This document shows positions 8,868 through 64,000 of a stretch of 64,000 bases of DNA, piece by piece. Numbering within the stretch: position 1 is the stretch's first letter; every line of letters starts with the position of its first letter. The notes beneath the pieces are model-generated. The model did no database searches and was not told where the DNA came from. It saw nothing but the letters and a program-made list of their open reading frames with translations. This stretch comes from Methylophilus sp. (GTDB lineage: Bacteria > Pseudomonadota > Gammaproteobacteria > Burkholderiales > Methylophilaceae). Location of the stretch: NCBI GenBank assembly GCA_030696695.1, contig JAUYRP010000034.1, positions 558,001 through 622,000 of the forward strand, written 5' to 3'. A program made the translations under genes and the position numbers.

Positions 8868-8883
8868 TGTTCATTTGCATGCA

Positions 8884-8912
8884 TAAAAAAGGCGCCTTGA
8901 GCGCCTTTTTTA
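8884..8912. terminator. Bidirectional intrinsic terminator
   Basis: A-run, then stem GGCGC / GCGCC with loop CTTGA, then T-run. Symmetric A and T tracts let it end both the exported-protein gene (plus) and mscL (minus). Confidence 0.85.
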
Positions 8913-8935
8913 TTGTGTAGATTTTTATAGCTTGC

Positions 8936-9349: not shown

Positions 9350-9528
9350 AATGTAGCTCCTCCATTAGTATTAGTAGTTAATCAATCCCGTGCAAATGCA
9401 TGGTTAATATAGTCTTGAGTGAATTGCTGTGTCAATCTGATGATCAAAACAATCACAATTTAATTTGTTTGGAATAGCCTGCCAGACGTTACAATCAGAA
9501 CGTTTTTAATCTTAATACATACCTAAGC

Positions 9529-11010: not shown

Positions 11011-11064
11011 AATCGGGGTTTTAGTAATCATCATCTTCACGCCTACTCTAGACTTTGTTTTTAA

Positions 11065-11140
11065 ACAAAAAAGACAAGGAGGCAAGGCAAAGGCAGTACG
11101 GTTAAAGTACGACAAGCCGACGCCGACGACGTATATTTTG
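11065..11140. repeat. Possible intergenic repeat element with small stem
   Basis: Before glyQ, purine-rich direct words (CAAGGAGGCAAGGCAAAGGC) are followed by GTAC-ggttaaa-GTAC and then by CCGACGCCGACGACG. The style resembles dispersed intergenic repeats of betaproteobacterial genomes. I see only one copy in this window, so repeat status is a guess. Confidence 0.25.
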
Positions 11141-11152
11141 GAATAACAACAA

Positions 11153-46780: not shown

Positions 46781-46857
46781 GCGCCCGTAGCTCAGCTGGA
46801 TAGAGTACTTGGCTACGAACCAAGGGGTCAGGAGTTCGAATCTCTTCGGGCGCACCA
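46781..46857 (+). tRNA. tRNA-Arg (anticodon ACG)
   Basis: 77 nt including CCA. Acceptor GCGCCCG / CGGGCGC, anticodon stem CTTGG / CCAAG, loop CTACGAA. The 3' part from 46813 is inside the 89-bp direct repeat that bounds the island, so the functional gene has been rebuilt by the integrated element. The chromosomal remainder of the old 3' half is at 63139. Confidence 0.97.
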
Positions 46858-46901
46858 TATAAAACAAGGGGTTAGCTTAGGCTAGCCCTTTGTCATTTTA
46901 C
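46813..46901. repeat. Island-end direct repeat, tRNA side (attL)
   Basis: 89 bp identical to 63139-63227; a single mismatch at 46902, then 9 more matching bases. Starts at the first base of the anticodon loop and includes the tRNA 3' half, the following terminator hairpin and the last three codons of the integrase gene with its stop. Confidence 0.95.
46864..46892. terminator. Terminator hairpin after tRNA-Arg
   Basis: AAGGG-GTTAGC, loop TTAG, GCTAG-CCCTTTGTC. One G-T wobble and one bulge. Suits the end of the tRNA transcript and, from the other strand, of the integrase transcript. Duplicated in the right-hand repeat. Confidence 0.65.
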
Positions 46902-47930
46902 GGAATGTAGCCAGAATGTAGCTCTACTTCCTTCACCTGCTTGAATCGAAGAAAAACGATCCACATATTGCGTTAAATGGTCACTGGAAAGATGGGCATA
47001 TTTCCTTACCATCTCCACACTTTCCCAACCACCTAACTCCTGCAGCACATGCAATGGTGTGCCTGATTGTACATGCCAGCTTGCCCACGTATGGCGCAAG
47101 TCATGCCACCTAAAATCAGTGATCCCCACTTTCTTTAACGTTGCATGCCATGTCTTCGTATTCACTTGGGTAACCGAGTTACCTTTGTAACTAAACACAT
47201 GCTTTGGGTGTTTGCCGATCTGCTCACGAATGACTTCGATCGCTGCCACACTCAACGGTACTGCAATGGCCTTTCTTGCTTTGGCTTGATCAGGATGTAT
47301 CCAAGCAGTACGTCTTGTAAGATCTACCTGTGACCATTGCAACCCTGTCACATTCGCTTTTCTAAGGCCTGTTTCAAGCGAAAATCTTACCATTGCAGAC
47401 AAGTGACTAGGCAATGCTCTGATTAAGCGTCCTGCCTCGTCCTTGGTGATCCAGCGTATGCGCCTTTTTGGTTCAGGCAACATTCGGACTCTAGGGACAC
47501 GCTCTAACCATTCCCAATCAAATGCAGCTTTGCGTAATACTGCACGAACGATCTCCATGGTGCGATTGACTGTACTATTTGCAACCTTGTCAGCAATACG
47601 CTTCGCCATGACCTTCTCAATCACATCGCGGCTAATCTCATCCAACATCAATCCACTTAAGTATTTATCCAGCCACCGCAGATGTGTTTTATCTGAGATG
47701 GTAGATGCTTTACCTGATGTTTCTGCTAAATAGCGAATAACCGCTTCTTGCCAAGAATAACGCGGTTTGATGCCGAGTCGTTCCTGATCCCACAATGAAG
47801 CCTTGAGCTTGTCGTGATACTCTAGCGCTTTGGCTTCGTCGGTAGTTTTAGAACTTCGTTGTATTGTTCTACCGTTGTGAGTAATTTTGATCCACCAGTA
47901 TGGTGAATTGTTACGTTTGAAGAGTGACAT
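46893..47930 (-). CDS. int: Tyrosine-type site-specific integrase
   Basis: A 345-aa phage-type integrase. The N-terminal part (PYWWIKITHNGRTIQRSSKTT) is an arm-binding domain, followed by a core-binding SAM-like domain (about 60-160). The catalytic domain shows the first arginine in SLETGLRKANVTGLQW, HDLRHTWASWH with the H-x-x-R pair, and the tyrosine in RKYAHLSSDH. It catalyses integration at the tRNA-Arg anticodon loop. Its stop codon lies in the att repeat. Its 5' end overlaps the HTH gene by 109 bp, a compact module typical of islands. Confidence 0.96.
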   Translation of the reverse strand: MSLFKRNNSPYWWIKITHNGRTIQRSSKTTDEAKALEYHDKLKASLWDQERLGIKPRYSWQEAVIRYLAETSGKASTISDKTHLRWLDKYLSGLMLDEISRDVIEKVMAKRIADKVANSTVNRTMEIVRAVLRKAAFDWEWLERVPRVRMLPEPKRRIRWITKDEAGRLIRALPSHLSAMVRFSLETGLRKANVTGLQWSQVDLTRRTAWIHPDQAKARKAIAVPLSVAAIEVIREQIGKHPKHVFSYKGNSVTQVNTKTWHATLKKVGITDFRWHDLRHTWASWHVQSGTPLHVLQELGGWESVEMVRKYAHLSSDHLTQYVDRFSSIQAGEGSRATFWLHSVK

Positions 47931-48130
47931 TGTAATACCTCTACTTTCTCACCCTGCAAATCCCGCCGCTTGTATTGTGCTCTGATATAGTCGATCAGGT
48001 CAACATCCACAAATACCCAACACTTGCCAATTTTAGTGCCAGGAATTTCGCCAGTGCGTGCTTTATCGCCTAAGGTGACAGGGTGGATTTTGAGGAGGTG
48101 TGCGGCTTCTTTTAGATTGAGGGTGTGCAT
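47822..48130 (-). CDS. Excisionase-like helix-turn-helix DNA-binding protein
   Basis: A 102-aa protein. The first 50 residues (LNLKEAAHLLKIHPVTLGDKA, then KIGKCWVF) match the MerR-like HTH_17 fold used by excisionases and recombination directionality factors. The remaining half is an unknown tail. Overlap with int and the same orientation suggest joint control of integration and excision. Direct repeats GTGCATAT at 48125-48132 and 48136-48143 overlap its start codon and could be its own binding sites. Confidence 0.8.
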   Translation of the reverse strand: MHTLNLKEAAHLLKIHPVTLGDKARTGEIPGTKIGKCWVFVDVDLIDYIRAQYKRRDLQGEKVEVLQCHSSNVTIHHTGGSKLLTTVEQYNEVLKLPTKPKR

Positions 48131-48236: not shown

Positions 48237-48962
48237 TTAGACTTTTAGTTTGCGTACATCGTCTGCACTGATTGCAGAATCTGGGTAGTTAAAGGCGGTG
48301 TTGACGATGGTAGCAATCATGCTGGGTGATTCAGTATCAAAATGTTGTTTCAAATAGCGTTTGAGATCCATTGCCAATTGATTCTGTTTGGCATGAGGTG
48401 TATTTCTTTTTTTAGGTAACCTCGCATCGGGCGCAGTAGCCGAATATTCAGAAGCCTTAGACATTACTTCTAGAATGTCGGTTATGGAGTATTGGGCTTG
48501 GATGGTAGCAAGGTGGTGTTGCAGTTGTTTGATCTCTAGGAAGCTCCCAGATATGCCTTGTTTAAGGCTTTCGGTTTCAGCTCGACCTAAAGTAGATTCA
48601 AGTAAACGCCAGCCATCATTGGGATCACGTCGATCACTAAGGTCTTTAAACTCATCCCTTAATTGATCAATTTTTACAGCGATGTTTTGAAATACTTCAC
48701 GTTGAGAGGTATCACTGAGGATAGTGATGGGGTCGTTCGGATGGCCAGCTAGGGCAGGGTGCAATCTAATGTAGTCTAGAAGGTCGATTAATTTTTGTGG
48801 ATTATTAGTTTTGTCACAAAGCGTTTTCCAGACATCTTTCATATCAGAGTTCGAGGATAACTGTATCAAAAGTGACTTAGTACCACTCGATACTCCAGAG
48901 TAGGCTAAATTAGAAATCTGCTTGTACAACTTATCTATAATTGGATTTTCAGACATAGCCAT
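48237..48962 (-). CDS. Unknown 241-aa island protein
   Basis: No family recognised. Predicted mostly helical and soluble, with no signal peptide. A lysine-rich segment (LPKKRNTPHAKQNQ, about 180-193) separates an N-terminal domain (1-175) from a C-terminal helical part that ends DSAISADDVRKLKV. The start MAMSENPI could be either of two ATGs. It lies between the excisionase gene and the metallophosphoesterase-STAND gene on the same strand with 202 bp to the latter. It may be an accessory partner, but this is inference from position. Confidence 0.7.
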   Translation of the reverse strand: MAMSENPIIDKLYKQISNLAYSGVSSGTKSLLIQLSSNSDMKDVWKTLCDKTNNPQKLIDLLDYIRLHPALAGHPNDPITILSDTSQREVFQNIAVKIDQLRDEFKDLSDRRDPNDGWRLLESTLGRAETESLKQGISGSFLEIKQLQHHLATIQAQYSITDILEVMSKASEYSATAPDARLPKKRNTPHAKQNQLAMDLKRYLKQHFDTESPSMIATIVNTAFNYPDSAISADDVRKLKV

Positions 48963-49164: not shown

Positions 49165-52100
49165 CTAATCATTGTTATGTTTCTCGGTTATAAGCTTCAC
49201 ATTTTTAGCTCGAACAAGGAAATAAGATGTATTCTTATCGGCTTTCAATATATCAGTGTTTAAGATATTTCTAGCACTTGCAGTTAGAGATTGAATGTAT
49301 ATCAGTTCGTTATCCTCGTCTCCGTTTAGGCGCCAGATAAAAGAACTATGCCTAAATAAAATCAGTAGATTTTTTACATCATTTCTTTTTTCAAAATAAT
49401 CCCAGAGAATGCGATGAGCCTGAGAAAATAATGTTTTGAATCTTTCGCCGTAAAAATATTGATAAGATTTGATTAGATTGTTTAGATCGATTGAGGGGAG
49501 GTTGCCAGTATCTTTAAGCAATAACTTACCTAATTTTACTGTTGCTCTACATGCATTATAGTTATCACCTACTTCCAAAGATGTGGAGTAAACAGTGCGA
49601 AGGCTATCATAATCACTACTACTATCGGAAACCCTATCTAATGCAAGGTTGTTAGCAACTGTGTTATAGCCAGAGGCACGGGCTTTTTTTTCTAATTTCA
49701 AAAGATCAGTTGATGAGTCTGCATCATGTTCCATTTCTATTAAAATTGCTTTAGCTTGCAATGCAGACGCACTTTTGGGTAGTAAAGCCATAACCTCTTT
49801 TGCAACCCCTATTGCCTTAGGGTCATTTAGACTTTGCAAACATAACGCGTAAGATAAAAGTATTTTAGCCCTGTCTTGATTCGATTGATGGGTATCAAGA
49901 AGTTTCTCTAGGAGCGGCAGCGCGGCAGAGTAATCACCAATCATTCTTAAACTTCTTGCTAATATAGTTTTAACTATATTTATGGTCTCAGTTTCAGTTT
50001 CAGGAATTGTGGATAAGATATCTCGGCACACGGTAACACAATTTCTATAATGTCTACCCGCGTACAAAGCATTACAGTAAATCTTACACAAGCTGAGTAT
50101 AGGCGTAATTGGAGGGAGATCGGCGTCAGCTAGAGTAGATTTTAATAACCGCATAACAATGTTATGAGGGTTTTCCATTAAGCTTCCATCCTCTGAAATT
50201 AATCTACTTTCAATTTTCTTAAGAGTTGCTTCGCCAGAACGCCATTTCTCGCCAAAGTAAAGGTTAATTGCCTTTTTAACTAGTGAATCAGTCTCACGAG
50301 TTGTCATAAGTGATAAAACATAATCTCTAACTTGCCTTGGTGCAAAAAGTATCTTAAGTCGAGTCTCATCTTTATCGCTTCCAATAAACGTGGTGGATGT
50401 TCTCACTTGAATTAAATCGTTATCTAATAGCTCCTCTGCGTGTTTTGGGAAGATAGGTATTTGATTATCAATCCGTTTTAAACGATCTAGGGATTCACCT
50501 TGAGGAAGAATTGATAGTGACTTAAGTAACAAATACGATCGTTTAGATGAGCTATCTTTTGAGGTTGATAATGTTGTTACAGCTTTAACGAGCGAGAATG
50601 GAACTGACTCTTTTAGTACAGAGTAATCTGCTGGATCTAGTAAATGAGCAGGTTCTAATTCAGATAACGGAATCACTCTTAACGTTTTTAACGTGCTATC
50701 AATTTTGCTAGGCAATCCATCGGTACATCTGTAAATCTGACTTACCGCATTTGAGGTCTTTGTTTCAGAAGTTGAGTGGGGGTGAGCTTCTAAATAGGTT
50801 TTCGTATCTGCCTCATCTAATGGCTCTAGAGTAACAGCATTATGAGTGTGATACTGAGGTTTTGTTCTAGCTAATAAAAGAATCGCAATTTCTGGGCAAA
50901 AATCTTTTATTGTTGATGCTAAATTTTCTATATCTCTCTCAACGGGTAGTCCTTTCGCTTCCCCGGTAGTGACGGGTACATCATCAAATAATAGAAATGC
51001 TGGTCCGGAAGCGGCTAATGCTTTACAGAATTCTGGGAATGAACATCCTACAGAAGTTGAGAATTGAGCTTGGAAATCATCTCGAGATTGATACTCACTT
51101 AGTGAAATTTGATAAACTGGTTGCGAGTCCCTCCCCACTTTTTTCAGTACCGACCAAATAAATCCGTCACGCCCAAGACCCCAATCTGAACAAACCCACG
51201 TGATTGCATCTTGATGAATGCTCTCGATACAGATTTGCTGTTCTAACGGGCGGATTGCCAAATGTTGTTCTTGTTCAGTCAATGGATGTGTGCATGCATC
51301 TAATGCTCTTTTCCATTGTGAGCTTGCCTCTTCAACTGTAAAAGATAAATCAACAGATAGCTTCGGGGCTACTATAAGAGATTTTGAAGAGTTTTTGGTT
51401 TGTAGTTTTTCTAATTGATACTCTTCTCCAGAGACAATTTCGAATGCCTCATGATCTGGGATAATTTTCCTATCGCCAGTTTTATGTGCCACGATGCCTT
51501 TTCTAGGCCATAGTTTCCAAGTTACCTCATTATCATCAAATGATATCTGCCCGACTGAATATCCGTGGCTTCGGAGTAATTTACCGTCAGTATGCTCTAA
51601 ACCAAACAAAGACGCACTTTGGAACGTTTTCCTAGCCTCACTACCTCCATAAGATTGATTGGTTAACTCAGCTTCATGCATATGGCCATATAAATGAGCC
51701 GTAAATCTACCTGATGGATATATTTCACTGTTGAATTCGCTTTGTGACTCTTTGTTAAGCCAAGCAGTTGGATGGTGGGTTACAAGAAAGTTAACTTCAT
51801 TTTTATTGCACCACGAGGGAGGGTCGTTATTAGTTACTGCATTTAACTGTCTGGCACTTAATGCCAGTTTTTTGAAGTAGTTGTTTCCACTAATCTGCAG
51901 AAACGAGCTGTTTAACCCCACCAATCCTACGGAGATGTTATTTATTTCTATATTTGATGAAATATCTCCAGGCAATATACCCTTAGTTATTGGGGCGAAA
52001 GGGATGCCAGTACTATTAATTTTATCTAGCCAATTTTCATAATGCAAAAAGGATTTTCTAACTAATTTAAGGTATTGATTATCCGGTTCATTCCAAAATT

Positions 52101-52455
52101 CGTTTATTACATCTTGATCATTCCCCCATAAACTAAGTATTTTGGCCGCGGCATCTTTTTGGTCTGGACGAAACAAATCATGATTACCCGGGACAGTAAA
52201 TAGCTTAGGCTTCATTTCGGCCTTGTCCCATAACTCCCATATTGCATTGAGCTCATTTGTTAAGGAACGATACTCATCAGCACTGCCTGTGTTGGTTAGG
52301 TCTCCAGAAAATATAACTAGGTCAATAGTTCCAATTTTATCTGAAAGTCTTTTTACGTCATTTAGAAAGATATGTTTGAAGTTTGGCCATAGCCATTGCG
52401 AGCTGTTGCCAATATGCAAGTCGCTAAGGTGCATCCATGTTAATTTTTTTTGCAT
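49165..52455 (-). CDS. Metallophosphoesterase-STAND-TPR protein (candidate defence protein)
   Basis: A 1096-aa, single-gene, three-part protein. Residues 1-310 are a calcineurin-like phosphoesterase with complete metal motifs: SDLHIG (D12, H14), SGDLTNTG (D52), PGNHDL (N91, H92), THHP (H227) and GHMH (H258, H260). Residues about 400-600 resemble a STAND NTPase: a P-loop-like SDWGLGRDG (423-431) in which the usual lysine-serine/threonine is Arg-Asp, a Walker B FLLFDD (487-492) and a sensor-like LLLARTKP. Residues about 760-950 are helical TPR-like repeats (YAGRHYRNCVTVCRDIL, MIGDYSAALPLLEKLL). There is no signal peptide. Effector-NTPase-sensor order is that of antiphage STAND proteins; function here is inferred. 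Confidence 0.8.
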   Translation of the reverse strand: MQKKLTWMHLSDLHIGNSSQWLWPNFKHIFLNDVKRLSDKIGTIDLVIFSGDLTNTGSADEYRSLTNELNAIWELWDKAEMKPKLFTVPGNHDLFRPDQKDAAAKILSLWGNDQDVINEFWNEPDNQYLKLVRKSFLHYENWLDKINSTGIPFAPITKGILPGDISSNIEINNISVGLVGLNSSFLQISGNNYFKKLALSARQLNAVTNNDPPSWCNKNEVNFLVTHHPTAWLNKESQSEFNSEIYPSGRFTAHLYGHMHEAELTNQSYGGSEARKTFQSASLFGLEHTDGKLLRSHGYSVGQISFDDNEVTWKLWPRKGIVAHKTGDRKIIPDHEAFEIVSGEEYQLEKLQTKNSSKSLIVAPKLSVDLSFTVEEASSQWKRALDACTHPLTEQEQHLAIRPLEQQICIESIHQDAITWVCSDWGLGRDGFIWSVLKKVGRDSQPVYQISLSEYQSRDDFQAQFSTSVGCSFPEFCKALAASGPAFLLFDDVPVTTGEAKGLPVERDIENLASTIKDFCPEIAILLLARTKPQYHTHNAVTLEPLDEADTKTYLEAHPHSTSETKTSNAVSQIYRCTDGLPSKIDSTLKTLRVIPLSELEPAHLLDPADYSVLKESVPFSLVKAVTTLSTSKDSSSKRSYLLLKSLSILPQGESLDRLKRIDNQIPIFPKHAEELLDNDLIQVRTSTTFIGSDKDETRLKILFAPRQVRDYVLSLMTTRETDSLVKKAINLYFGEKWRSGEATLKKIESRLISEDGSLMENPHNIVMRLLKSTLADADLPPITPILSLCKIYCNALYAGRHYRNCVTVCRDILSTIPETETETINIVKTILARSLRMIGDYSAALPLLEKLLDTHQSNQDRAKILLSYALCLQSLNDPKAIGVAKEVMALLPKSASALQAKAILIEMEHDADSSTDLLKLEKKARASGYNTVANNLALDRVSDSSSDYDSLRTVYSTSLEVGDNYNACRATVKLGKLLLKDTGNLPSIDLNNLIKSYQYFYGERFKTLFSQAHRILWDYFEKRNDVKNLLILFRHSSFIWRLNGDEDNELIYIQSLTASARNILNTDILKADKNTSYFLVRAKNVKLITEKHNND

Positions 52456-52785: not shown

Positions 52786-55098
52786 CTAAAATTCTGCCCA
52801 CTCGCCATCTTCAGTACCTGTCTTGTTAATTTTCTTAATTGTAGATGTTTCAGTTATTGCTTTAGGCGCTGCTGCTTTTGTTGGCTTAGCCGTTCTGATT
52901 GATTTGGTACTCTCGTGGCGATTAGTATGCATTTTACCGCCACGATTTAATTTAAACACACTCACTACCTCTATTAAGTTTGCAGCCTGATCAACCAATG
53001 ATTCAGCTGCTGCTGCAGCTTGCTCAACTAAAGCGGCATTTTGCTGAGTAACTTCATCCATGCTGGTGACGGCCGTATTCACTTGGTCTATACCTACGCT
53101 TTGTTCGACAGATGCAGCAGTAATTTCACCCATAATATCTGTAACGCGTTGAACTGAAGCGACGATTTCTTGCATGGTTGTACCTGCTGACTCGACTTGT
53201 GATGTGCCTATCGCAGTCTTGCTAACTGAATCTGTAATTAGTTCTTTAATCTCTTTTGCAGCGCTGGCTGAACGTTGCGCTAAGTTACGTACTTCACCCG
53301 CCACTACCGCAAAACCACGGCCTTGCTCACCTGCACGTGCAGCCTCGACAGCAGCATTAAGGGCTAATATATTAGTTTGGAACGCAATACCATCAATCAC
53401 AGAAATAATATCTTCAATTTTTTTTGCACTGCTGTTAATGTCTTCCATTGTGGATACAACATCAGAAACAACTTTTCCGCCTTTCTCTGCAATGCCTGAG
53501 GCTGCAATTGCTAATTGATTGGCTTGTTTAGCATTTTCAGCATTATTTTTTACTGTTGATGCGAGCTCTTCCATGCTTGCAGCAGTTTCTTCTAGGCTAG
53601 AAGCTTGTTCTTCTGTGCGGCTAGATAAGTCACTATTCCCTGTTGATATCTCTCCAGCTGCTGTATTGATAGTTTCGCTCGTTTCACGAACCTGCTCTAT
53701 AACTTCGGTCATTTTGTCCATGATGGCATTTACACCATCACATAAGCTAGCAATAGCACCTGTTTTACCATCCAGAGGAACACGGCTGGTTAAATCACCT
53801 TTTTTAGCACCCTCAATGATTATTTGTGTTTCTTCTACGGCGTTGGCTAAAGTTAATGCTTCGTTGTACTGCTTGGTAATATCAGTGGCATATTTCACTA
53901 CCTTGAACGGCTTGCCGTTCATATCCATGATTGGGTTGTAACTGGCTTGCAACCAAATTTCTTTGCCGCCTTTGCCAATGCGTTTATATTGCCCTGCATC
54001 GGGTTCGCCATGCGCTAACTTATCCCAGAAGGCTTTATATTCTTGGCTGGATTTATAAGCGGGTTCAACGAACATGCTGTGATGATTACCCACGATTTCT
54101 TTTTCGTTATAGCCAGTTACGCTGGCAAAATTTTCATTCACTGCTGTAATCTTGCCTGTGAGATCAAATTCAATCACACCCTGAATTTTACTGATAGCTG
54201 CTAGTTGACCTGAGTTATCAGCAGCTGTAAGTTTTTGCTGGGTAATATCAGTAGCGTACTTCACTACCTTGAAAGGTTTGCCGTTCATGTCCATGATGGG
54301 GTTGTAACTAGCTTGTAGCCAAATTTCTTTGCCGCCTTTACCGATACGTTTGTACTGACCTGCATCGGCTTCACCACGTGCTAACTTTTCCCAGAAAGTT
54401 TTATATTCTTGGCTAGACTTATATGCGGGTTCAACGAACATGCTGTGGTGATTACCCACGATTTCTTTTTCGTTATAGCCAGTGACGCTCGCAAAGTTTG
54501 CGTTCACGGCTGTAATCTTACCTGTAAGATCAAATTCAATAACACCTTGTATTTTACCAATAGCGGCTAGCTGGCCAGCAGCATCTGCGTCCTCTAGTGA
54601 TTTACGTCGATCAGCAGTTACGTCGCGCCATTCCAGTACATTGCCACTGTAATTTCCATCTGAGGAATATGTGGCTGTAACATATAAAGCAATTGTTAAA
54701 CTGCCTACTTTAATATCAGTTTTAAATGGAAGCAGTGATGTATCTGCCAACATTTGACGCTGATGCTCGGGTTTCTTATGAAACACATCAATACAAGTAC
54801 CCATTATTTTTGTAGGATCGAAAGATGGAAATGCTGCCTTAAAATCTTCAGCCTTCTCGGTAAATAGATTAATACTCGCTTCGTTTACATAGGTAACGAT
54901 AAAATCTCGATTGATAATCATCACCGCAGCTGATGACCCATCCATCGCACTTTTTACAGCTATAAGTGCATTTTCTCTAGCTTTCAACTCAAGAATCAAT
55001 TGCTCATTTTCGGTGATTTCAATATCTTTTACTTCACTTTCATACTTTAATTTCGCAATTTCTTTTATTCTTTTACCGTTAAAAAAATCTTTAATCAT
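52786..55098 (-). CDS. Soluble PAS-PAS-PAS methyl-accepting chemotaxis protein
   Basis: A 770-aa chemoreceptor without transmembrane segments, so cytoplasmic. PAS1 about 45-165 is divergent. PAS2 (175-286) and PAS3 (297-408) are almost identical, both containing [15 protein letters not shown] and [25 protein letters not shown]-like linker (about 412-470) follows, then the signalling domain with tip [19 protein letters not shown] and [16 protein letters not shown]. The C-terminus EDGEWAEF resembles the CheR/CheB-docking pentapeptide. It likely senses an internal redox or ligand cue and talks to CheA/CheW encoded elsewhere. Island cargo. Confidence 0.93.
53875..54576 (-). repeat. Tandem intragenic duplication of a PAS domain
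   Basis: Two units, 54241-54576 and 53875-54210, offset by 366 bp, encode 112-residue PAS domains differing at about six positions. Recent in-frame duplication inside the chemoreceptor gene. Confidence 0.9.
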
Positions 55099-55378
55099 GT
55101 TGTTAATCCCTATTCTTAATTTAAATAGATACCAAACTTATCAATTATTGTAGTTAGCAGACTGGTCGTATTAGATTAGTAACCAGCAAATGAAGAGGCC
55201 CATGCCACGAGAGCCTTACTAACATCTTCTAAAATTCGTTCATAACATCTAAAAATCTTAAGTTTCCATTGATGAAACATGATTAACCCTTTCGATTTAT
55301 TACAGTTAATAGATAATTTTCATAAAGTTCTATGATGCTTCCTTAATGCATATTTATTTGAAATCAGTTTGTTAGTGG

Positions 55379-56056
55379 TTAGCTAATCGGCGAAATCGCT
55401 TTACTAGCTGCATTTACTTTCTGTGCTGCTGTGATAATCGAAGTGCTGGATTTTTTAAGTAAATTGATGATCGCTTTCATACAATCAATCATAGAATTTA
55501 CGTCATTGCACAAGTTGGTAATTTCCCCTGATTTTCCTTGTAGCTGAACTTGTTGAGTTAAATCATTATTTTTAACCGCAAGAACAACCGTATTAATCTC
55601 TCTTACTGTAGACGCTATTGTTTGTTTTAACTGAACATGTTCGGTAATGTCAGTAGCATGTTCTAAAACCTTTAATGGCTTTCCATCTATCCCTATAATT
55701 GGAAAATATATGGCTTGAATCCAAATAGTTTTGAATCCCTTGCCAATGCGTTTATACGTCCCTGAAACAGATTCCCCCATGTTTAGCCTCTCCCAAAAAT
55801 CAATGTTATCTGCACTGTGGCTATACCTCAGATCAAGTAACATCCCGATATCCTGATTTTCTAGTTCACTAGCCGTGTAACCAGTTAGCTTGATAAAGTT
55901 TTTATTCACTGAGATAATTTTTCCACTTAAAGTGTATTCAGCTACACAACGGGATGCAAAGACCGCCTCTGCATGAGCACGTAATTCAGAAAGTTCCTTT
56001 TTGGATATCGCTGTTATCAAGTTTTGATCTTCAGATTTCTGTAAATTTTCCAACAT
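55379..56056 (-). CDS. PAS-HAMP-like truncated chemoreceptor relative
   Basis: A 225-aa protein. Residues 30-145 are a PAS domain related to those of the adjacent chemoreceptor (KRIGKGFKTIWIQAIYFPIIG, then EHATDIT). A HAMP-like helical part (about 150-210) aligns with the same region of that receptor (NNDLTQQVQLQGKSGEI versus [17 protein letters not shown]). It stops where the methyl-accepting domain should begin. It may be a decayed receptor or a stand-alone PAS adaptor. Start codon and ribosome site (AAGGAG) look normal. Confidence 0.75.
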   Translation of the reverse strand: MLENLQKSEDQNLITAISKKELSELRAHAEAVFASRCVAEYTLSGKIISVNKNFIKLTGYTASELENQDIGMLLDLRYSHSADNIDFWERLNMGESVSGTYKRIGKGFKTIWIQAIYFPIIGIDGKPLKVLEHATDITEHVQLKQTIASTVREINTVVLAVKNNDLTQQVQLQGKSGEITNLCNDVNSMIDCMKAIINLLKKSSTSIITAAQKVNAASKAISPIS

Positions 56057-56149
56057 AAGAACTCCTTAAATTTGTGCCATGCATTTGCAAACGATTATTT
56101 ATGAGTTTAAAAACCTTTATTCCTAAGCATTTAGTACACTTTGAGCTGG

Positions 56150-58241
56150 TCATTTACCTGCCCCAGAGCTCGGATTAATCAGAGATTCAAAATCTTGCAC
56201 AGGTATTGGCATGCTGAATAAATAGCCTTGATAAGTTAGGCAACCTTGTTTTTCTAGGCAGGCACGCTGAGCTTCAGTCTCTACCCCTTCAGCAATGACG
56301 TGAAATCCAAGTGAGCTGGCCATTGCGATGATAGTTTGTGCGATGACAGCGTCATTTTGATCAGTATCTATATCTCGCACAAAACTCCTGACTAATTGGA
56401 AGTCTTTTCAGATAACTTAAAGAGGAGTAGCCAGTGCCAAAATCGTCGATAGAAAAACGAATGCCGAGAAGTTTTAATGCTTCCATTTTTTCAACGGTCG
56501 CAGTAATGTCTTGAATCACCAAACTCTCAGTTAGCTCAATTTTAAGCTGGGATGCTCTGGCACCAGTTTCTTCGAGCACTTTGCATACTTGACCAACAAA
56601 ATCAGACTGCCCAAATTGACGAGCGCTAACATTCACTGCCAATACTAAGTTCTCGGTGAGAGGATTTTTTTCCCAAAGTTTGAGTTGAATACAGGCGGCA
56701 TGTAATACCCAGAGACCGATAGGTATAATCAGACCAGATTGCTCTGCAAGTGGAATGAAATCATTCGGTGTGATTATTCCGCGTTGGGGATGCTCCCAAC
56801 GCAACAAAACCTCTGCGCCTAAGATGTTGCCAATGTGATCAACTTGTGCCTGATAATAGAGTTTTAGCTCATCGTTTGGAAGTGCCTGATATAGCTCTGA
56901 TAATATTGCTTGTCGATTTTCCAGAGATGCATGCAAATCAGGATCAAAAAAACGCATAGTGTTGCGCCCAGCATTTTTTGCTTGATACATCGCCACATCA
57001 GCGCGTTTAAGCATTTCCTCACTTGTTGAAATAGGCATAGTAAATAAACTGATGCCTATGCTGAGAGTGCAATGTAATGTTTCGCCCGCTATCAAAAACG
57101 GCTGCTCCATTGCTTTGATAACTTTCTTACTTACAGACTCTGCTTGTACGGCAGCAATGTTTTGATCCTTACTCAATATTTCTAGCAAGATAACAAACTC
57201 ATCACCTCCAAGCCTTGCAACAGTATCACCGTCACGCACTTGTGTTTTGAGACGATTCGCTACTTCAATTAGCAATAGGTCCCCAATTGCATGGCCTTTC
57301 GTATCATTAATATACTTAAAGTGATCAATATCGATCATGAAGACCGCTCCGAAATGACCGCTACGAGCACTGTTATTTAATGCTTGTTCCATGTGGTCGC
57401 TGAAGAGTCGCCGATTCGGCAAGTCGGTAAGCGGGTCGTAAAATGCTAAACGATAAATCGCATCTTTCGCTTCTTTGTGTTCACTAAGGTCGGTGAAAGT
57501 GCCAATGTAATTGTGTATATCACCATCTGGCCCAGTTACAGCAGTGATGGTTAACCATTTAAGATATATCTGGCCATTTTTACGTCGATCCCAAATTTCA
57601 CCTTGCCAAAATTTCTTTTCTTTTAATGATTTCCACATCGCATCATAAAAGCTTTTGTCATGGCGACCCGATTTAAGAATCGCTGTCGTTTCACCAATGA
57701 CCTCTTCTGGACTGTAACCGGTTAATCTTGTAAAGGAGTTGTTGACGCGAAGAATGCGGTTATTAGCATCAGAGATGACAATAGCTTCTTGAGACTCTAT
57801 AGCTGCGTCAGCAACACGTAGATTTCGCTCTGCCAATCTGATGTCGGTAATTTCGCGTCTGATGGTAATTAGCCATTTTCGAGAACCATATTCGTTGAAT
57901 ATGGGAGATCTTCTAACTTCGTATTCACGTATGTTGCCTTTTATATCAACGATATTCTCGTCAAATACAACTAATTTTCCAACGTTCCAAGCAACTTCGT
58001 CATCCGCTGAGCAAGTGTCATATATATCGCGCATCTCAGGACGTTTAATACCGAGAGCTTTGTAGGTTTCACCATGCCAGTCAGTATTATGTAATTTGAA
58101 TAGACTCTTTGCAGACTCGTTTGCAACTAAAAAGCGACCGTTGCCGTCTTTAATAAGAATTGCGTCTGGGTATTGCTCAATCAAATCATTTAATACTTCA
58201 TTTAGAGCATAGGTGGGGGAGTGCTTAATCTCCTCCATCAT
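56150..58241 (-). pseudogene. PAS-PAS-GGDEF-EAL cyclic-di-GMP protein broken in the EAL domain
   Basis: The first frame (58241-56361, 626 aa) has PAS1 (20-135), PAS2 (145-255), GGDEF with intact RLGGDEF (343-349) and EAL with AEVLLRWEHP (476-485) and DDFGTGYSS (599-607). After SYLKRLPISQ the frame shifts and ends EFCARYRY. A second frame (to 56150) resumes as SFVRDIDTDQND, then HVIAEGVETEAQRA and QGYLF. The missing piece corresponds to the usual LKIDR motif, about 14 bp at 56388. The phosphodiesterase is thus probably dead while the cyclase could still work if the truncated protein is stable. Confidence 0.85.
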
Positions 58242-58605
58242 AATGCACCCGTGTTTATGTGAGTAGCTATTGAATTATTTTTGGAGTCGCTTGCAGAAAA
58301 CCATATCCATGGTGAGCGCGTATCTGCTATGTCGATACTTGCAATGTGAGGTAAAGCAACTAATTTGGATGTTGAAAAAATTTCAAGCAAACCGAACATA
58401 TATATCCACCTTCCTTTTCAGGAAAACCATCGTTTCCATCCGTTGTTAAATAAAAAACTTTCGGAAAATAAAAACGAGGCATGTTCGGGGCCTCAGTGAC
58501 TTGGTGCCAGGTTCAAGGGCAATCCAAATGACGAATTACTTACAACATTAATAAAAGAATATTACAACATCCATAAAGCAAAATGTTTAGAGAGCAGAAC
58601 CAGTT
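58242..58605. other. 364-bp leader between ANTAR regulator and cyclic-di-GMP gene
   Basis: No ORF. On the minus strand it holds a hairpin TTGG-AT-TGCC / GGCA-CCAA (58501-58527) and then an intrinsic terminator (58476-58494 plus T-run). The terminator precedes the cyclic-di-GMP gene, so transcription through it may be regulated. I could not identify the paired hexaloop hairpins that ANTAR proteins normally bind. Confidence 0.5.
58463..58494 (-). terminator. Intrinsic terminator in leader
   Basis: Minus strand: GAGGC, 9-base loop, GCCTC, then GTTTTTATTTT. Located 110 bp after the ANTAR gene stop and 220 bp before the cyclic-di-GMP gene start. Confidence 0.7.
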
Positions 58606-59229
58606 TTATACGCTATTTCTTAGGTTAAGTGTTTCACGAGAGTTGATGATACTTGAGGCAAGCTCAATCAATTTAAGGTGCTCGCTACGGGCAGTTCTAC
58701 GAAGTAACTCTAATGCATCGTCATGATTAATTAAATGTTGATCCATGATGATTCCTGTTGCCACACTAATTGCGCGGTCAGCGTCGAGTGCAGTCTGAAG
58801 CTGTTGTTTCGCTTTACGTAAGTTCTTAATCTCTTGTGAACGATAAATGGCCGTCTCGATAGTTGGAATCAATTGCGAAATATCTACTGGCTTTACTAAA
58901 TAACCCATAGCACCTGACTCCTTAGCTTGTGTAATAATTTCTTGATCGCTATGTGCTGTAAGTAAAATAAATGGAATCTGGTTACTGTCATTTAGATACT
59001 CTATTAATTCCAAACCGTCTCTATCTGGCATACGAACATCTAATATCACTAAATCTGGCTGATCATTATTATTTAGCCACTTTTCTGCCTCATCGACTGA
59101 TTCTGCAGAAGTTACTCGGTAACCCGCTCTTGCAAGGCCGTTGCTTAGGGTTGCTATAATCAGACGGTCATCATCGACTAATAAAATTGATTTCATTTGG
59201 GTCACAATTTGAGTTTCTAAATTCTTCAT
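58606..59229 (-). CDS. ANTAR-domain response regulator (RNA-binding antiterminator)
   Basis: A 207-aa protein. Residues 13-125 are a receiver with acidic LVDDD (19-21), phosphoacceptor D64 in VILDVRMPD, T91 and K113. Residues 145-200 are an ANTAR domain (SVATGIIMDQHLINHDDALELL). ANTAR regulators dimerise on phosphorylation and bind leader RNA to prevent termination. An in-frame ATG at residue 12 is an alternative start. The gene is 10 bp downstream of its likely kinase and upstream of a leader with a terminator, an arrangement seen with ANTAR targets. Confidence 0.93.
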   Translation of the reverse strand: MKNLETQIVTQMKSILLVDDDRLIIATLSNGLARAGYRVTSAESVDEAEKWLNNNDQPDLVILDVRMPDRDGLELIEYLNDSNQIPFILLTAHSDQEIITQAKESGAMGYLVKPVDISQLIPTIETAIYRSQEIKNLRKAKQQLQTALDADRAISVATGIIMDQHLINHDDALELLRRTARSEHLKLIELASSIINSRETLNLRNSV

Positions 59230-59239
59230 AATCTGTAAA

Positions 59240-61018
59240 TCAATTCCCTTCTAGGTTAACAGTAGTAGGTCCTAAAGTTAATCTTGCAGAAACTATATTG
59301 TCAATACAATCAAAACACAGACTCGCTGCTTTTTTTGGTAACAGTGATAATACAAGTTGTAAGCCTGTTCCAATCGATGAGGAACTTATAAAGTCGAAGT
59401 CCTCAGGAAGTTGACCAGGGTTTGTGATAGTTACTTGAATTAGATTCGGTTGAGGCTCATGCCTTAGTGAGACAGTGACTCCTTTACCTATGCCACCATG
59501 CTTTATCGCATTTGAGATTAATTCGTTCAACACAATAGCAATCGGCACAGAATCGCTTTCATTAACTTGAGATGGAATCCAGTTCTGGGGGATATCCATC
59601 TTAATAGGTGTGTTCCATAAAGATTCGTTATTTGCAGCAATTTCTGTAGCTAGTTCGCATAAGCGCACTTTTGTGGTCGTTGCACGCCCTTGAAGACCGT
59701 GAATGACTGAAATGCTATGAACTTGACTAATTGCCTTAGATAATGGATTTGAGAGTTCTGGGTATTGGGCGGCAAAATTTCTCAAAACACCGATAACACC
59801 TTGTAAATTATTTTTTATACGGTGATGCACTTCGCGGACCAGCGCGTCACGATGAGCCGTTTCGTCAATTCCACGCTGTTGTTCTTGTTGTTTGGCATCT
59901 GAATTATCTTTGAGAGTGGCTACGTAATTCGTTACTAACCCCTCATTGTTAGATACTGCTGTAATTGTCAGCTGTTCAGGATAGGCTTTTCCGTCCTTAC
60001 GTCGATTCCAAATCTCACCATTCCAACCCCCAGTTTTTTTTATGCTTTCCCACATACCAAGATAAAAGTCAGAATCATGATGTCCTGATTTAAGTATACT
60101 TGGGGTTTTGCCTATAACTTCCCCTGCTGGATATCCTGTAATTCTCGTAAACGATTCATTTACCCTAATAATAATGTTTTGAGAATCCGTCACCATAATT
60201 CCCTCATTTGTCCTAAAGGCAATATCTGCAATTTGAAGTGCATTTTCTGCTAATTTACGCTTGGTGATATCTTCCACCAGTACCGCAAATCTCTCTTGCT
60301 GGGGTCGATATGCGTATATTTGATACCATCGCCTCAATTCACTGGAGTGACTCTCAAAGGATACTGATTCACCTGTGTCTACGACCTTCCCATAACGTTC
60401 AATCCAAGTGTGCTCAACCTTAGGTAGAACCTCTTTGACGCGTTTTCCGATCCAGCTCTCACGAGGTATTCCAGTTATATTTTCGAAAGAAGGATTAACC
60501 TCTAGAAATTTATAGTCAACTATACTGCCTTGTGAGTCGCGAATAACCTCGTGCAGGGCGAATCCACTCGACATGTTTGTAAATAACAAATTAAAACAGT
60601 TAAGAGTGTCTTTAAGCGTACTTTCTTTACGTTTACTTTCTGTAATGTCCTTAGAGATTCCATAAAGACCAATAACTTGACCGCTACTGTCTCGTAGTGG
60701 TCTTTTTATTACTTGGTAAAACCTATTTTCGCCCGTTGATTTAACTATAATGCTTTCTTCTAACTCTATAGTTTTACCTAGTTCGATTACTTGCCGATCA
60801 TTTAATCTTAGCTTGTTCGATATGTCTAAATTGAAAAAATGACTGTCGTCTTTGCCGATGATATTTTCATAAGGTTGTTCAAACAGATCTTGAACTTTTT
60901 GGTTGACATAGGTATAGCGGCCTGACAAATCCTTCATATAACAGTAGTCGTCAGTTTGATCTAAGATATTTAGTAGCCCAATCATCATATTTTGTGACGT
61001 GACTAGATTAATGTTCAT
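59240..61018 (-). CDS. PAS-containing sensor histidine kinase (HisKA_2 type)
   Basis: A 592-aa soluble kinase. PAS1 about 10-128, PAS2 about 135-255 (with SGFALHEV and GESVSFESH) and PAS3 about 260-375 (ITGYPAGEVIGKTPSILKSG). It has a HisKA_2 dimerisation domain with REVHHRIKNNLQ (histidine 399 the likely phosphosite) and an ATPase domain with NELISNAIKHGG (498-509). HisKA_2 kinases commonly pair with ANTAR regulators, and one follows by 10 bp. No transmembrane segment, so the signal is cytoplasmic. PAS3 resembles PAS2 of the neighbouring cyclic-di-GMP protein (VIGxTxxILKSGxHD). Confidence 0.92.
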   Translation of the reverse strand: MNINLVTSQNMMIGLLNILDQTDDYCYMKDLSGRYTYVNQKVQDLFEQPYENIIGKDDSHFFNLDISNKLRLNDRQVIELGKTIELEESIIVKSTGENRFYQVIKRPLRDSSGQVIGLYGISKDITESKRKESTLKDTLNCFNLLFTNMSSGFALHEVIRDSQGSIVDYKFLEVNPSFENITGIPRESWIGKRVKEVLPKVEHTWIERYGKVVDTGESVSFESHSSELRRWYQIYAYRPQQERFAVLVEDITKRKLAENALQIADIAFRTNEGIMVTDSQNIIIRVNESFTRITGYPAGEVIGKTPSILKSGHHDSDFYLGMWESIKKTGGWNGEIWNRRKDGKAYPEQLTITAVSNNEGLVTNYVATLKDNSDAKQQEQQRGIDETAHRDALVREVHHRIKNNLQGVIGVLRNFAAQYPELSNPLSKAISQVHSISVIHGLQGRATTTKVRLCELATEIAANNESLWNTPIKMDIPQNWIPSQVNESDSVPIAIVLNELISNAIKHGGIGKGVTVSLRHEPQPNLIQVTITNPGQLPEDFDFISSSSIGTGLQLVLSLLPKKAASLCFDCIDNIVSARLTLGPTTVNLEGN

Positions 61019-61320: not shown

Positions 61321-62625
61321 GTGAAAATTTATCGACTAGCTTTAGCTATTATCATAACTTGTCTAGCCTCAGGTTGTGCTACGAATACAATGACTGGGAG
61401 ATCGCAGCTTATAATCGTCTCTGAGGCGGCTGCAATCAATAAAAGCTCATCTTTATACAGCTCTATGATTGATGCATATGACAAAGATAGTAAGTTAAGT
61501 GGCAATACTGAGGTCAACGAACGCGTTCTAAACATCACCAATCGCTTAGTAGAAAAAGCAGTGCTATATAAACCTGACGCTCAGAAGTGGAAATGGCAGG
61601 TTAATGTAATTGAATCTGAAGAAATCAATGCTTTCTGCATGGCTGGCGGAAAAATGGCGGTTTATACAGGCTTGCTTGAAAAAATCAATCCTACAGATGA
61701 TGAGCTTGCCCAAGTAATGGGACATGAAATTGCACATGCTTTAGCAAATCATACCGCAGAAAAAATGTCAGTCGATATCCTTACACAAATAGCTGTGGCC
61801 ACGGCAACTGTTGCCGTAGCTGCGTCTGGTAGTGGGTCACAACAACAAAGAAGCAACAATACAAATGCTGCTCAAAACGTAGCCGTTTTAGCAGGTGCTG
61901 CATTTGTCACTCTTCCAAACAGCCGTGGAGCTGAGACAGAAGCAGATAAGCTAGGTATCGAAATTGCAGCGCAAGCTGGATATAACCCTGCAGCATCAGT
62001 TACCCTGTGGGAAAAAATGATGGAGGCTACCGGTGATAAGAGTAAAGGTGACTTTTTAAGTACTCATCCATCTTCACTAAACCGCATAGAGGCATTAAAA
62101 GTACTTCAAGAACCAATGGCAAAAATATATCAAGAAAGATTGCCACTATATGCTAATTATGTTCCAGCGTATCAGTACGTCAGATCTAGCAAGGATTCAG
62201 CAGGATTTTCATCTTCTAATGTAAGAGTCATTGAGGAAGGGAAGATCTCTTTAGTAGAGCCCCCAGTTATTGATTCAACGAAAGCGATTGCTTTTTATTC
62301 TGCAGATTATGACGCTTTTAAACAAGGCAACCTTGAGATGAAATGTGCTACATGTAGCCTCAAGTTTTACCTAAATCAGAAAGATTTAAAAGTAATGCAT
62401 GATAAACAAGATTGGCGTGGCTTAGTACAGAGCCTGATTAAAATTGGATATGAGTTTGATTTATCCTATTACTATTTGGCTGCAGCTGCAAATGGATTAG
62501 GTTATAAAGAGTCTGCTGAGAAATATCTGACCAGGGCAAAAGAGTTATCTTCTGTTGAAAAAACCTCATGCGAGCTAGCAAAGATGATTAAGTGTACTGA
62601 TGTAGTTGTATCTTTCAATGAGTAG
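61321..62625 (+). CDS. M48-family metalloprotease lipoprotein
   Basis: A 434-aa protein starting at GTG. It has a lipoprotein signal with lipobox LASGC (Cys19), then an M48 domain with zinc motif HEIAHALANH (135-144) and third ligand in ETEADKLG. Residues after 290 form an extra C-terminal part with cysteines in KCATCSLKFYL and CELAKMIKC and an alpha-helical pair resembling a short TPR. It resembles LoiP/YcaL-type envelope quality-control proteases. The extra C-terminal domain is not part of those. Island cargo. Confidence 0.88.
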   Translation: MKIYRLALAIIITCLASGCATNTMTGRSQLIIVSEAAAINKSSSLYSSMIDAYDKDSKLSGNTEVNERVLNITNRLVEKAVLYKPDAQKWKWQVNVIESEEINAFCMAGGKMAVYTGLLEKINPTDDELAQVMGHEIAHALANHTAEKMSVDILTQIAVATATVAVAASGSGSQQQRSNNTNAAQNVAVLAGAAFVTLPNSRGAETEADKLGIEIAAQAGYNPAASVTLWEKMMEATGDKSKGDFLSTHPSSLNRIEALKVLQEPMAKIYQERLPLYANYVPAYQYVRSSKDSAGFSSSNVRVIEEGKISLVEPPVIDSTKAIAFYSADYDAFKQGNLEMKCATCSLKFYLNQKDLKVMHDKQDWRGLVQSLIKIGYEFDLSYYYLAAAANGLGYKESAEKYLTRAKELSSVEKTSCELAKMIKCTDVVVSFNE

Positions 62626-62685: not shown

Positions 62686-63012
62686 GTGATTCAAGTAATC
62701 TTATTTTGCATTATTTGCGCCATATTTACACCACTGTCTTTGTATGCAGGAGATTCTACAAATTACGAGGATGCAGAATTAATTAAGTTAAGAATAAGAG
62801 AGTTAGAATTAAAAAAGGAAATACTTGAGCTTGAGGCAAAGAAAAACGACAAAACTATTACTCAATCATCTTCTCCACAATCAAATGCCACTGTACCAAG
62901 TACAAATTACTCTACATCAAATTCAAATTATATTCGTGGGCCCAGGGGAGGTTGTTACACATTTAGCAAGTCAGGTAATAAAAGATATGTAGATAGGAGT
63001 TTGTGTAATTGA
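62686..63012 (+). CDS. Small exported protein with GPRGGCY-type C-terminal domain
   Basis: A 108-aa protein starting at GTG after a strong AAGGAGG. It has a signal peptide (cut near LYAG), a charged coiled-coil helix (ELIKLRIRELELKKEILELE), an S/T/N-rich linker and a C-terminal motif RGPRGGCYTFSKSGNKRYVDRSLC with two cysteines. That ending recurs in small phage, plasmid and virus proteins, often called a basic adaptor domain. Function unknown. It lies 60 bp after the M48 gene on the same strand, so they may work together. Confidence 0.75.
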   Translation: MIQVILFCIICAIFTPLSLYAGDSTNYEDAELIKLRIRELELKKEILELEAKKNDKTITQSSSPQSNATVPSTNYSTSNSNYIRGPRGGCYTFSKSGNKRYVDRSLCN

Positions 63013-63340
63013 TACTGTAGCAATTTACAGTTTGATTATGCTGCTTTAAATTTTATTTAGACTGTTCTGGGTTGCAAATCAGTTTGGCGAGATTCGCAAG
63101 CTGTTGATTATAAACATAAAATAATTGAAAAAGCCGTTCTACGAACCAAGGGGTCAGGAGTTCGAATCTCTTCGGGCGCACCATATAAAACAAGGGGTTA
63201 GCTTAGGCTAGCCCTTTGTCATTTTACCGAATGTAGCTTGAATGTAGTCCTTCAAATGCGTAATGTTCAGTTAATGTGAATTACAACACATCATGCTATT
63301 GATAACTGCAGTTGCCTCACCTTATGAAGGTGAGCAACTT
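63013..63340. other. 328-bp region containing the right island end
   Basis: Holds the attR repeat (63139-63227) and, at 63311-63338, a hairpin GTTGC-TCACCTT / AAGGTGA-GCAAC followed by a T-run on the plus strand, next to the stop of the EAL gene. No ORF is supported. Confidence 0.7.
63139..63227. repeat. Island-end direct repeat, distal side (attR)
   Basis: Identical 89-bp copy of 46813-46901. Contains the 3' 45 nt of tRNA-Arg, without its 5' half, then the terminator hairpin and a minus-strand LHSVK-stop reading like the integrase end. Not a functional tRNA. Confidence 0.95.
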
Positions 63341-63344
63341 TTAT
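63311..63344 (+). terminator. Intrinsic terminator outside island end
   Basis: 12-bp imperfect stem with loop TATG and a following TTTTA. Lies just downstream of the minus-strand EAL gene stop; may work in both directions. Confidence 0.6.
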
Positions 63345-64000
63345 CTATTCACTTTGGCGCGACGGTTTTTCACCAATAGCCATATCTCATCTGGTATTGT
63401 TGGTAGCATTTCAAAACCGGGTCTTGCAAAGAAATAGCCTTGAAATAATGTGACACCTTCATCGGCTAAAGTCAGGCATTCTTCTTTTGTTTCTATCCCT
63501 TCTGCAATCACTTTGATATTGAGTTGTTTGCAAATTGAAATAATCCCAAAAACCAACGCACGTCGTACATTGTCGCTATTCACATTGCGTGTGAGTGACA
63601 TATCTAGTTTGATAATGTCTGGTTGCCAATCAGCAAGTAAGTTCAGGCCCGCATAGCCTGCACCAAAGTCATCAATCGCCGTGGTGAATCGATGTTTTTT
63701 ATACTCTTTAAAAATATTACGTAAATGGTCGTTATCAATTACTTTTTCACCTTCAGTGACTTCAAACATAATGCGGTCGGTAGGGAAGTCCATTTCTGCA
63801 GCGGCCTCTAACGTAGCACGTATGCATGTCTCTGGTTTGTACACAGCATTTGGTAAGAAGTTAATGCTGAGCATGCCTTGTAAGTTTAGTTTCTTGGCAA
63901 GGTCTATGGCCTTGACACGTATAGCCTGATCAAAGCGATAACGATTGCTATCATTCACTTGTGACAGTATCGAAAATGCGCCTTCATTATTTGGCCCTCT
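63341..64000 (-). CDS. EAL-domain cyclic-di-GMP phosphodiesterase, 5' end outside window
   Basis: The open frame continues to the window edge with no upstream stop (GPNNEGAFSILSQVNDSNRYRF). The GTG at 63958 is only an internal codon. The visible C-terminal part carries EAL-domain motifs: FEVTEGEKV, DDFGAGYAG, IKLDMSL, VIAEGIETKEE and QGYFFARP. Residues preceding it, including the EAL motif itself, are off the window, so N-terminal sensing domains cannot be seen. The ending of GEGAFSVL type followed by VNDxNRYRFDQ is shared with BLUF-EAL and other single-EAL proteins. Confidence 0.88.
   Translation of the reverse strand, partial: RGPNNEGAFSILSQVNDSNRYRFDQAIRVKAIDLAKKLNLQGMLSINFLPNAVYKPETCIRATLEAAAEMDFPTDRIMFEVTEGEKVIDNDHLRNIFKEYKKHRFTTAIDDFGAGYAGLNLLADWQPDIIKLDMSLTRNVNSDNVRRALVFGIISICKQLNIKVIAEGIETKEECLTLADEGVTLFQGYFFARPGFEMLPTIPDEIWLLVKNRRAKVNR

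Follow-up and report, generated by a model that had tools for sequence, protein, structure and literature searches.

A mobile phosphoesterase-STAND-TPR gene of Methylophilus as a candidate anti-phage receptor with an eroded Walker A motif

NLR-like immunity, whether bacterial, plant, or animal, is currently modeled as depending on an ATP/ADP switch. Among the closest described systems, the phosphoesterase-NACHT protein DS-8 protects Escherichia coli and requires both its phosphoesterase residues and a residue likely critical for the ATPase activity of NACHT (PMC13092281), and the Walker A lysine is essential in Avs5 (PMC12931631). TIR, SIR2, and nuclease effectors are exchanged on STAND proteins with C-terminal repeats (PMC9122126), and the term iSTAND denotes a STAND-derived domain with an eroded Walker A motif (PMC7159879, PMC8195603, PMC12839542). 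Here we describe a gene of Methylophilus sp. found in a 64,000-nucleotide stretch of contig JAUYRP010000034.1 (positions 558,001 to 622,000), referred to below as the window. The gene, at 49165 to 52455 on the minus strand, is predicted to encode a 1,096-amino-acid protein in which an N-terminal calcineurin-like phosphoesterase is followed by a STAND-derived middle region and then by TPR-like helices. Judging from sequence, we consider it a candidate single-gene anti-phage receptor, composed of an effector, a STAND-derived scaffold, and a TPR sensor and forming part of the cargo of an integrative element, with a probability of about 0.68.

The open reading frame (ORF) starts with ATG and contains 1,096 codons without an internal stop, and its own 2.98-Mb genome contains one match to the protein. 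Scans for relatives, performed with a pattern built from a three-row alignment, recovered at least 20 full-length proteins, 17 on genome contigs and 3 on viral contigs. Together with the copy on a Rhizobium plasmid and the copy at locus L014, which has the same module sequence as the Mesorhizobium row L030, these relatives indicate that the architecture did not arise by chance; the large single-gene protein proposed in a preliminary description of the window is therefore real. The counts are lower bounds, with the best 80 of 114 relatives covered in the genome-contig scan. The 79 genome-contig loci comprised 17 full-length copies, 1 broken copy, 38 loci scanned for architecture, and 23 (L072 to L094) that were left out; the reading frames of L031 and L032 are cut short, and for these two only the portion before the stop was used. 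The broken copy, from Achromobacter (L065, 8001 to 9891), is split into several short frames and appears to be a decaying relative.

The phosphoesterase domain occupies residues 8 to about 320 (51496 to 52434; this and all other parts of the protein are on the minus strand). PF00149 matched residues 8 to 261 above its cutoff (E = 3e-12; 47.8 bits versus 21.5). Five metal-binding motifs are present, namely D12-x-H14 (motif I, 52414 to 52422), G51-D52 (II, 52300 to 52305), G90-N91-H92-D93 (III, 52177 to 52188), H227 (IV, 51775 to 51777), and G257-H258-M259-H260 (V, 51676 to 51687), and each is kept in 23 of 23 alignment rows. The metal ligands themselves (D12/H14, D52, N91/H92/D93, H227, and H258/H260) are invariant among the 23 aligned full-length proteins. 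The preliminary description had read an intact phosphoesterase with all five motifs from the translation, had named D12 and H92 correctly, and had suggested the hidden Markov model search with PF00149 that now confirms the domain. According to the family profile, the closest solved phosphoesterases are Lmo2642, the SbcD/Mre11 nucleases, and Rv0805, and by the same measure SbcD/Mre11 and Rv0805 belong to the same metal-binding family as the window phosphoesterase.

SbcD/Mre11 is a repair nuclease and Rv0805 a cyclic-nucleotide phosphodiesterase, and both lack a STAND-TPR module. The appearance of Rv0805 among the profile matches, side by side with nucleases, could point to a role in counter-defense, in which the phosphoesterase would quench a signal by degrading a cyclic oligonucleotide and thereby allow an element or prophage to escape CBASS-like immunity. 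The three relatives in viral contigs would fit such a role. However, it leaves unexplained both the replacement of the phosphoesterase by SIR2 described below and the presence of a 700-residue regulatory module, and a search with the window protein matched 0 of 50,697 phage records. We regard this role as improbable.

The middle region escaped every curated STAND model. Pfam STAND, NACHT, and NB-ARC models gave no match to the 1,096-residue protein at E ≤ 0.1, and the Pfam STAND models matched 0 of the 23 full-length members at E ≤ 0.01. PADLOC and NCBIfam likewise yielded no Avs, NACHT, or NB-ARC match to the protein at E ≤ 1, and querying the PDB with the sequence of the STAND region returned nothing meaningful (best E = 0.25). 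The search with NACHT and STAND profiles that had been proposed along with the PF00149 search was thus negative. We then compared region 385 to 735, as an alignment of 22 members, with individual domain sets in hhalign, whose E-values refer to single comparisons and not to a database search. Probabilities reached 94.9 with six rows of NB-ARC-like sequences and 81.2 with nine rows of NACHT domains. A set of 20 phosphoesterase-STAND rows, which had been trimmed with a P-loop pattern and contains a dynamin-like protein as well as one cut that is probably wrong, scored 92.4. The SIR2-side version of the module (8 rows) reached 99.9. No control exceeded 1.7, whether RecA, the phosphoesterase or TPR part, or any of five column-shuffled versions. 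In the alignment, a Walker-B-like strand, a sensor-like strand, an LxPLDEAD stretch, and a TDGxP motif stand opposite their STAND counterparts. The STAND-derived core identified in this way spans residues 398 to 600 approximately (50656 to 51264). The part that follows within the family profile, residues 600 to 735 approximately (50251 to 50658), is predicted to be a winged helix or linker, a label suggested by the usual order of STAND domains.

The Walker A position of the window protein reads CSDWGLGRDGF and lacks GK[S/T]. Across the family, this eroded P-loop (residues 422 to 433; 51157 to 51192) has the motif WGxGxxxF where GxxxxGK[S/T] would be expected, with W425, G426, and F432 present in 23 of 23 rows and G428 in 21 of 23. 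Lysine occurs at position 429 in none of the 23 fused rows (22 distinct sequences), and the two split forms described below have no GK in the loop either. On the SIR2 side, GK is kept in 4 of the 7 rows that contain the loop, and among 38 proteins with only the phosphoesterase in common, 20 have a canonical P-loop pattern between residues 340 and 700. The Walker-B-like strand FLLFDD (residues 487 to 492; 50980 to 50997) has been better preserved, with Asp491 present in 19 of 23 rows. Because hhalign places the region near NB-ARC and NACHT domains with clean controls and the lysine is missing from every fused row, we conclude that it has STAND ancestry with a lost Walker A motif. In lacking Walker A in all 23 rows while keeping the Walker-B-like Asp in 19, it resembles an iSTAND domain. 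The "STAND-like NTPase" of the preliminary description is consequently upheld as to ancestry and not as to being a normal NTPase. Membership in the NACHT or Avs families was considered and rejected, given the absence of any curated model match and of GxxxxGK[S/T] in all 23 rows.

The disappearance of the Walker A lysine throughout the phosphoesterase-linked family means that the ATP-switch mechanism of Avs, NACHT, and NB-ARC proteins cannot be assumed for it. By analogy with Avs5-type proteins, the TPR part and the scaffold would hold the phosphoesterase inactive at rest. Binding of a phage-derived ligand to the TPR part would alter the shape or assembly of the scaffold, and the two-metal phosphoesterase, once unleashed, would cut an essential nucleotide or nucleic acid and stop the infection; the SIR2 enzyme, of an NAD-destroying type, presumably plays the same part in the version with the swapped effector. 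With the lysine lost, the switch would probably be operated by a ligand-induced conformational change and not by ADP/ATP exchange. Alternatively, the protein might serve the same immune role as an ATP-regulated receptor with an odd P-loop, its STAND part still binding nucleotide in a noncanonical way through Walker B and neighboring residues. The loop is not random in sequence, as the invariance of W425, G426, and F432 and the frequency of Asp491 attest, and its GK survives in some SIR2-side modules. Nevertheless, Lys429 is missing from all fused rows and GK from both split forms, and the Walker A lysine of Avs5 (PMC12931631) and a residue of DS-8 that is likely critical for its NACHT ATPase activity (PMC13092281) are essential; an ATP-regulated switch therefore seems to us rather unlikely. 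As for the ligand-driven receptor, we suggest tentatively that it represents an NLR-like family that switches without Walker-A-dependent ATP binding, in which the scaffold and TPR sensor gate the effector directly, recognition alone frees the phosphoesterase or, in a sister clade, SIR2, and the phosphoesterase destroys a nucleotide or nucleic acid that would be a novel immune target.

DS-8 (NCBIfam NF053861, DefensePredictor) is similar to the window protein in being a single protein that has a metallophosphoesterase at its N terminus and, after it, a STAND-type domain. NF053861 aligned to residues 9 to 310 of the window protein (5.5e-21), but the score of 74 bits fell far short of the cutoff (790), and only positions 1 to 273 of the 994 in the model were aligned. 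The two also differ at the P-loop: the pattern GK[S/T] was present in 5 of 8 loci found with the DS-8 model, a count that rests on the same pattern used to cut the phosphoesterase-STAND reference set, whereas the window family lacks GK. Of the three loci without the pattern, one was a partial match lying beyond that region, and the other two matched in the phosphoesterase part only. Comparison of the middle region with the five P-loop regions of DS-8-model loci gave an hhalign probability of only 21.8; the SIR2-side module reached 81.5 against the same regions. With 74 of 790 bits and STAND regions that barely align, we rejected membership in DS-8. The PADLOC candidate PDC-S60 also shares the N-terminal phosphoesterase (E = 6.7e-24), with positions 4 to 286 of 1,027 aligned. 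Since DS-8 has been validated (PMC13092281), the concept of a phosphoesterase receptor is already known, contrary to the earlier remark that such effectors are less described. What is new here is the receptor family without Walker A and its exchange of phosphoesterase and SIR2. We found no description in the openly licensed literature of a Walker-A-less STAND-TPR module common to the two effectors, which is a weak negative.

Other STAND proteins resemble the window protein in different respects. With Avs5 and other SIR2-STAND proteins, and with TIR-, SIR2-, and nuclease-STAND-repeat proteins, it shares the order of effector, STAND, and repeats and the exchange of effectors, SIR2 included, but Avs5 needs an intact Walker A motif (PMC12931631, PMC9122126). 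PADLOC Avs models did not match the window protein or two SIR2 relatives at E ≤ 1. The match to STAND immune proteins claimed in the preliminary description accordingly holds for the order of effector, STAND-derived region, and repeats and fails at the level of Avs, NACHT, or NB-ARC models. The iSTAND domains of MoxR-vWA- and BREX-type systems also have an eroded Walker A, are linked to effectors, and are proposed sensors (PMC7159879, PMC8195603, PMC12839542); this likeness is one of description and not of sequence comparison. They differ in that the window protein has its own enzymatic effector and a C-terminal TPR region and has no MoxR, vWA, or BREX neighbor. No MoxR-vWA or BREX gene was found in the island, where eight proteins were searched with Pfam and the other ORFs assessed by reading, or beside the relatives among the matches listed (the best 25 of 122 Pfam families and the best 25 of 102 PADLOC families). 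A paper on a Vibrio SIR2 system (PMC11559045) was set aside because it concerns Nezha (SIR2-HerA) and not the STAND-TPR module.

The exchange of effectors became apparent on plasmids. In a tblastn search over 72,556 plasmid records, the window protein matched 13: one Rhizobium record with a full-length fusion (33.5% identity), one Pseudomonas record in which phosphoesterase and module are neighboring overlapping genes, and 11 in which the match begins only at residue 374 or later (best 2e-37). Four of the 11 are annotated as SIR2, six as hypothetical, and one is unannotated, and a SIR2_2 domain was found in both of the SIR2-annotated module proteins that were scanned. Of the 8 plasmid modules aligned, 7 are immediately preceded by SIR2-like sequence, which is fused to the module as an annotated SIR2 part in four (L004, L005, L007, and L010) and forms the frame just before it in three (L008, L011, and L012, of which L011 was taken from one stop codon to the next). 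The eighth module, L009, begins just after an insertion sequence transposase gene, with no SIR2 found before it, and was placed on the SIR2 side by its tree position only. In a tree of 33 modules, about which the program warns of long branches, a single branch with support of 100/100 separates 25 phosphoesterase-linked rows from the 8 SIR2-side rows, so that one effector swap suffices to explain the distribution. Since the same STAND-TPR module stands behind SIR2 on plasmids, either fused or as the next gene, we conclude that the effector has been swapped. TrlF, HEPN, or CBASS genes occur within about three genes of the module at 4 of the 7 annotated SIR2-side loci. Searches with single SIR2-side representatives gave 0 matches for one module in the 50,697 phage records, none for its SIR2 gene in a DNA search of E. 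coli genomes, and none confirmed in viral contigs for one SIR2 form and one split form.

The phosphoesterase has changed partners as well. Among the matches listed (the best 25 of 39 families) for the 38 proteins related only via this domain were NACHT (9), FGE-sulfatase (8), AAA_35 (6), AAA_16 (4), and NB-ARC (3), with caspase, TIR, or CHAT each found singly; in one of these, from a Bryobacterales metagenome-assembled genome (L033, 7995 to 10160), the phosphoesterase is fused to a caspase-like peptidase domain. At L139, L140, and L142, an N terminus that is TIR-like by reading, with no model scan, precedes a DS-8-type NACHT part, in what looks like a second effector exchange. Thus, the module takes SIR2, the phosphoesterase takes NACHT and other partners, and the NACHT part of DS-8 takes a TIR-like domain, indicating that effector and STAND halves are exchangeable parts. 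The module and the phosphoesterase are overlapping separate genes in the two split forms, one on the Pseudomonas plasmid, adjoining an integrase (L003, 7998 to 11307), and the other at L015 (1381 to 4679).

The putative sensor is the TPR-like helical region at residues 735 to 1070 approximately (49246 to 50253). Its repeats, proposed from the translation in the preliminary description, are weak in the lone sequence, where TPR_14 matched with E = 0.0012 and 19.8 bits, below its cutoff of 23.5, and single TPR models matched at most 5 of the 23 members. They are backed by the family profile, which aligned with solved consensus TPRs at a best E of 3.6e-12.

The receptor gene is carried by an integrative element of 16.3 kb inserted in a tRNA-Arg(acg) gene (46781 to 46857, plus strand; ARAGORN). 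The element is bounded by 109-nt direct repeats (97%) in the plus orientation, a left attachment repeat made up of the 3' part of the tRNA gene and its flank (46813 to 46921) and a right one (63139 to 63247), which are 16,326 bp apart from start to start. A genome of the same genus, G130, has an empty site in which the tRNA-Arg side runs straight into the right flank (74% over about 1 kb). A second, G048, contains the same element with both repeats and different cargo in the middle; at 1e-10, neither genome contained a match to the receptor. Shared backbone genes at the left end, all on the minus strand, are a tyrosine integrase (46893 to 47930; PF00589, E = 9.6e-34; 98% identical in G048), an HTH_17 regulator (47822 to 48130; PF12728, E = 1.1e-8; 97%) that is excisionase-like (TIGR01764) only below cutoff, and a gene for a 241-residue protein (48237 to 48962; 75%). 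At the other end, on the plus strand, are genes for an M48 peptidase (61321 to 62625; PF01435, E = 2e-39; 85%) and a 108-residue protein (62686 to 63012; 66%). The integrase island recognized earlier is therefore genuine and now delimited.

Carriage on elements and plasmids would also be expected of an abortive toxin that maintains its element by addiction and has no anti-phage role. The adjacent 241-residue protein was considered as a partner or antitoxin and rejected, because the G048 element keeps it (75%) without a match to the receptor; for the same reason, the receptor occupies a cargo slot and the 241-residue gene belongs to the backbone. Beside the relatives, no small partner recurs: no Pfam family was found in more than 3 of 103 neighboring ORFs among the matches listed, a count from which genes without a Pfam match are left out. 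We consider addiction very improbable. The neighboring ORFs were defined by a longest-ORF heuristic, with 103 of 144 scanned and 41, mostly short or overlapping frames, dropped; 10 neighbors from 5 loci were scanned singly.

The receptor is distributed sporadically and has spread horizontally. It was found in 1 of 150 genomes of the family, its own, and in 2 of 369 of the class, its own and one with a weak phosphoesterase-only match; the module profile found it in 3 of 398 genomes of the phylum, its own included. A housekeeping distribution, which would have spoken against a defense function, was thus not seen. In the module tree, a Stenotrophomonas row is nested in an otherwise alphaproteobacterial clade, the class labels being those we take the names of the rows to imply. 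Integrase PF00589 appears twice among the neighboring ORFs, and of the viral-contig relatives, L095 and L097 lie beside an integrase and L096 beside tail genes, with a repressor also among the neighbors. The defense-island location proposed in the preliminary description is therefore supported as regards mobile elements and viral contigs, and only in part as regards defense genes, with a strong PADLOC neighbor (a known or candidate defense gene) at no fewer than 3 of 20 loci.

This last figure (at least L019, L025, and L031, from 103 ORFs) is one of several observations that weigh against an anti-phage receptor. Many of the neighbor families listed are housekeeping, such as RNA polymerase and elongation factor G, and no TrlF, HEPN, or CBASS gene was listed at 3 of the 7 annotated SIR2-side loci. 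The rest of the middle cargo of the element consists of PAS/MCP genes, recognized by Pfam, and of GGDEF-EAL, response-regulator, and histidine-kinase genes, recognized by reading. Mean conservation of the TPR part (0.35) is close to that of the STAND core (0.38; phosphoesterase, 0.46), so the TPR part is not a hypervariable sensor. To these may be added the poor alignment with the P-loop regions of DS-8 loci, and we came across no phage test for any family member. The signaling genes in the cargo and the housekeeping neighbors could instead suggest a nonimmune regulator of the island or host, acting in stress, chemotaxis, or cyclic-nucleotide signaling. The lack of a recurring Pfam neighbor among the matches listed, the patchy distribution with its displaced Stenotrophomonas row, and the swap to a SIR2 effector are all at odds with this, and we judge such a role to be of low probability. 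The anti-phage or conflict function originally proposed for the gene thus retains domain order, effector modularity, mobile carriage, and sporadic distribution on its side and has lost the normal NTPase, membership in Avs, NACHT, or NB-ARC, and a strong association with defense genes.

A conserved, mobile family in which a scaffold and an intact effector are combined without a Walker A lysine offers a means of testing whether an ATP/ADP switch is needed at all. The exchange of phosphoesterase and SIR2 on one module provides a natural comparison for approaching the substrate, a question shared with DS-8 and DS-9 (PMC13092281). Because no Pfam, NCBIfam, or PADLOC model covered the STAND part in our scans, annotation tends to name the effector only and to miss the receptor that is shared.

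Several minor features of the elements were also noted. In the cargo at 52786 to 61018, the PAS units are internally repeated as a family of 300-nt repeats, and by reading, the GGDEF-EAL ORF at 56361 to 58241 ends early in its EAL part. In the G048 element (L137, G048:C1:2245500-2262500, about 3400 to 13000), a gene for a 397-residue kinase-like protein is followed, by reading, by one for a 609-residue TPR-like protein; this pair, which takes the cargo slot used by the receptor in the window, is a candidate system. A separate EAL-like ORF, again identified by reading, lies just to the right of the right attachment repeat of the window (63341 to 63958).

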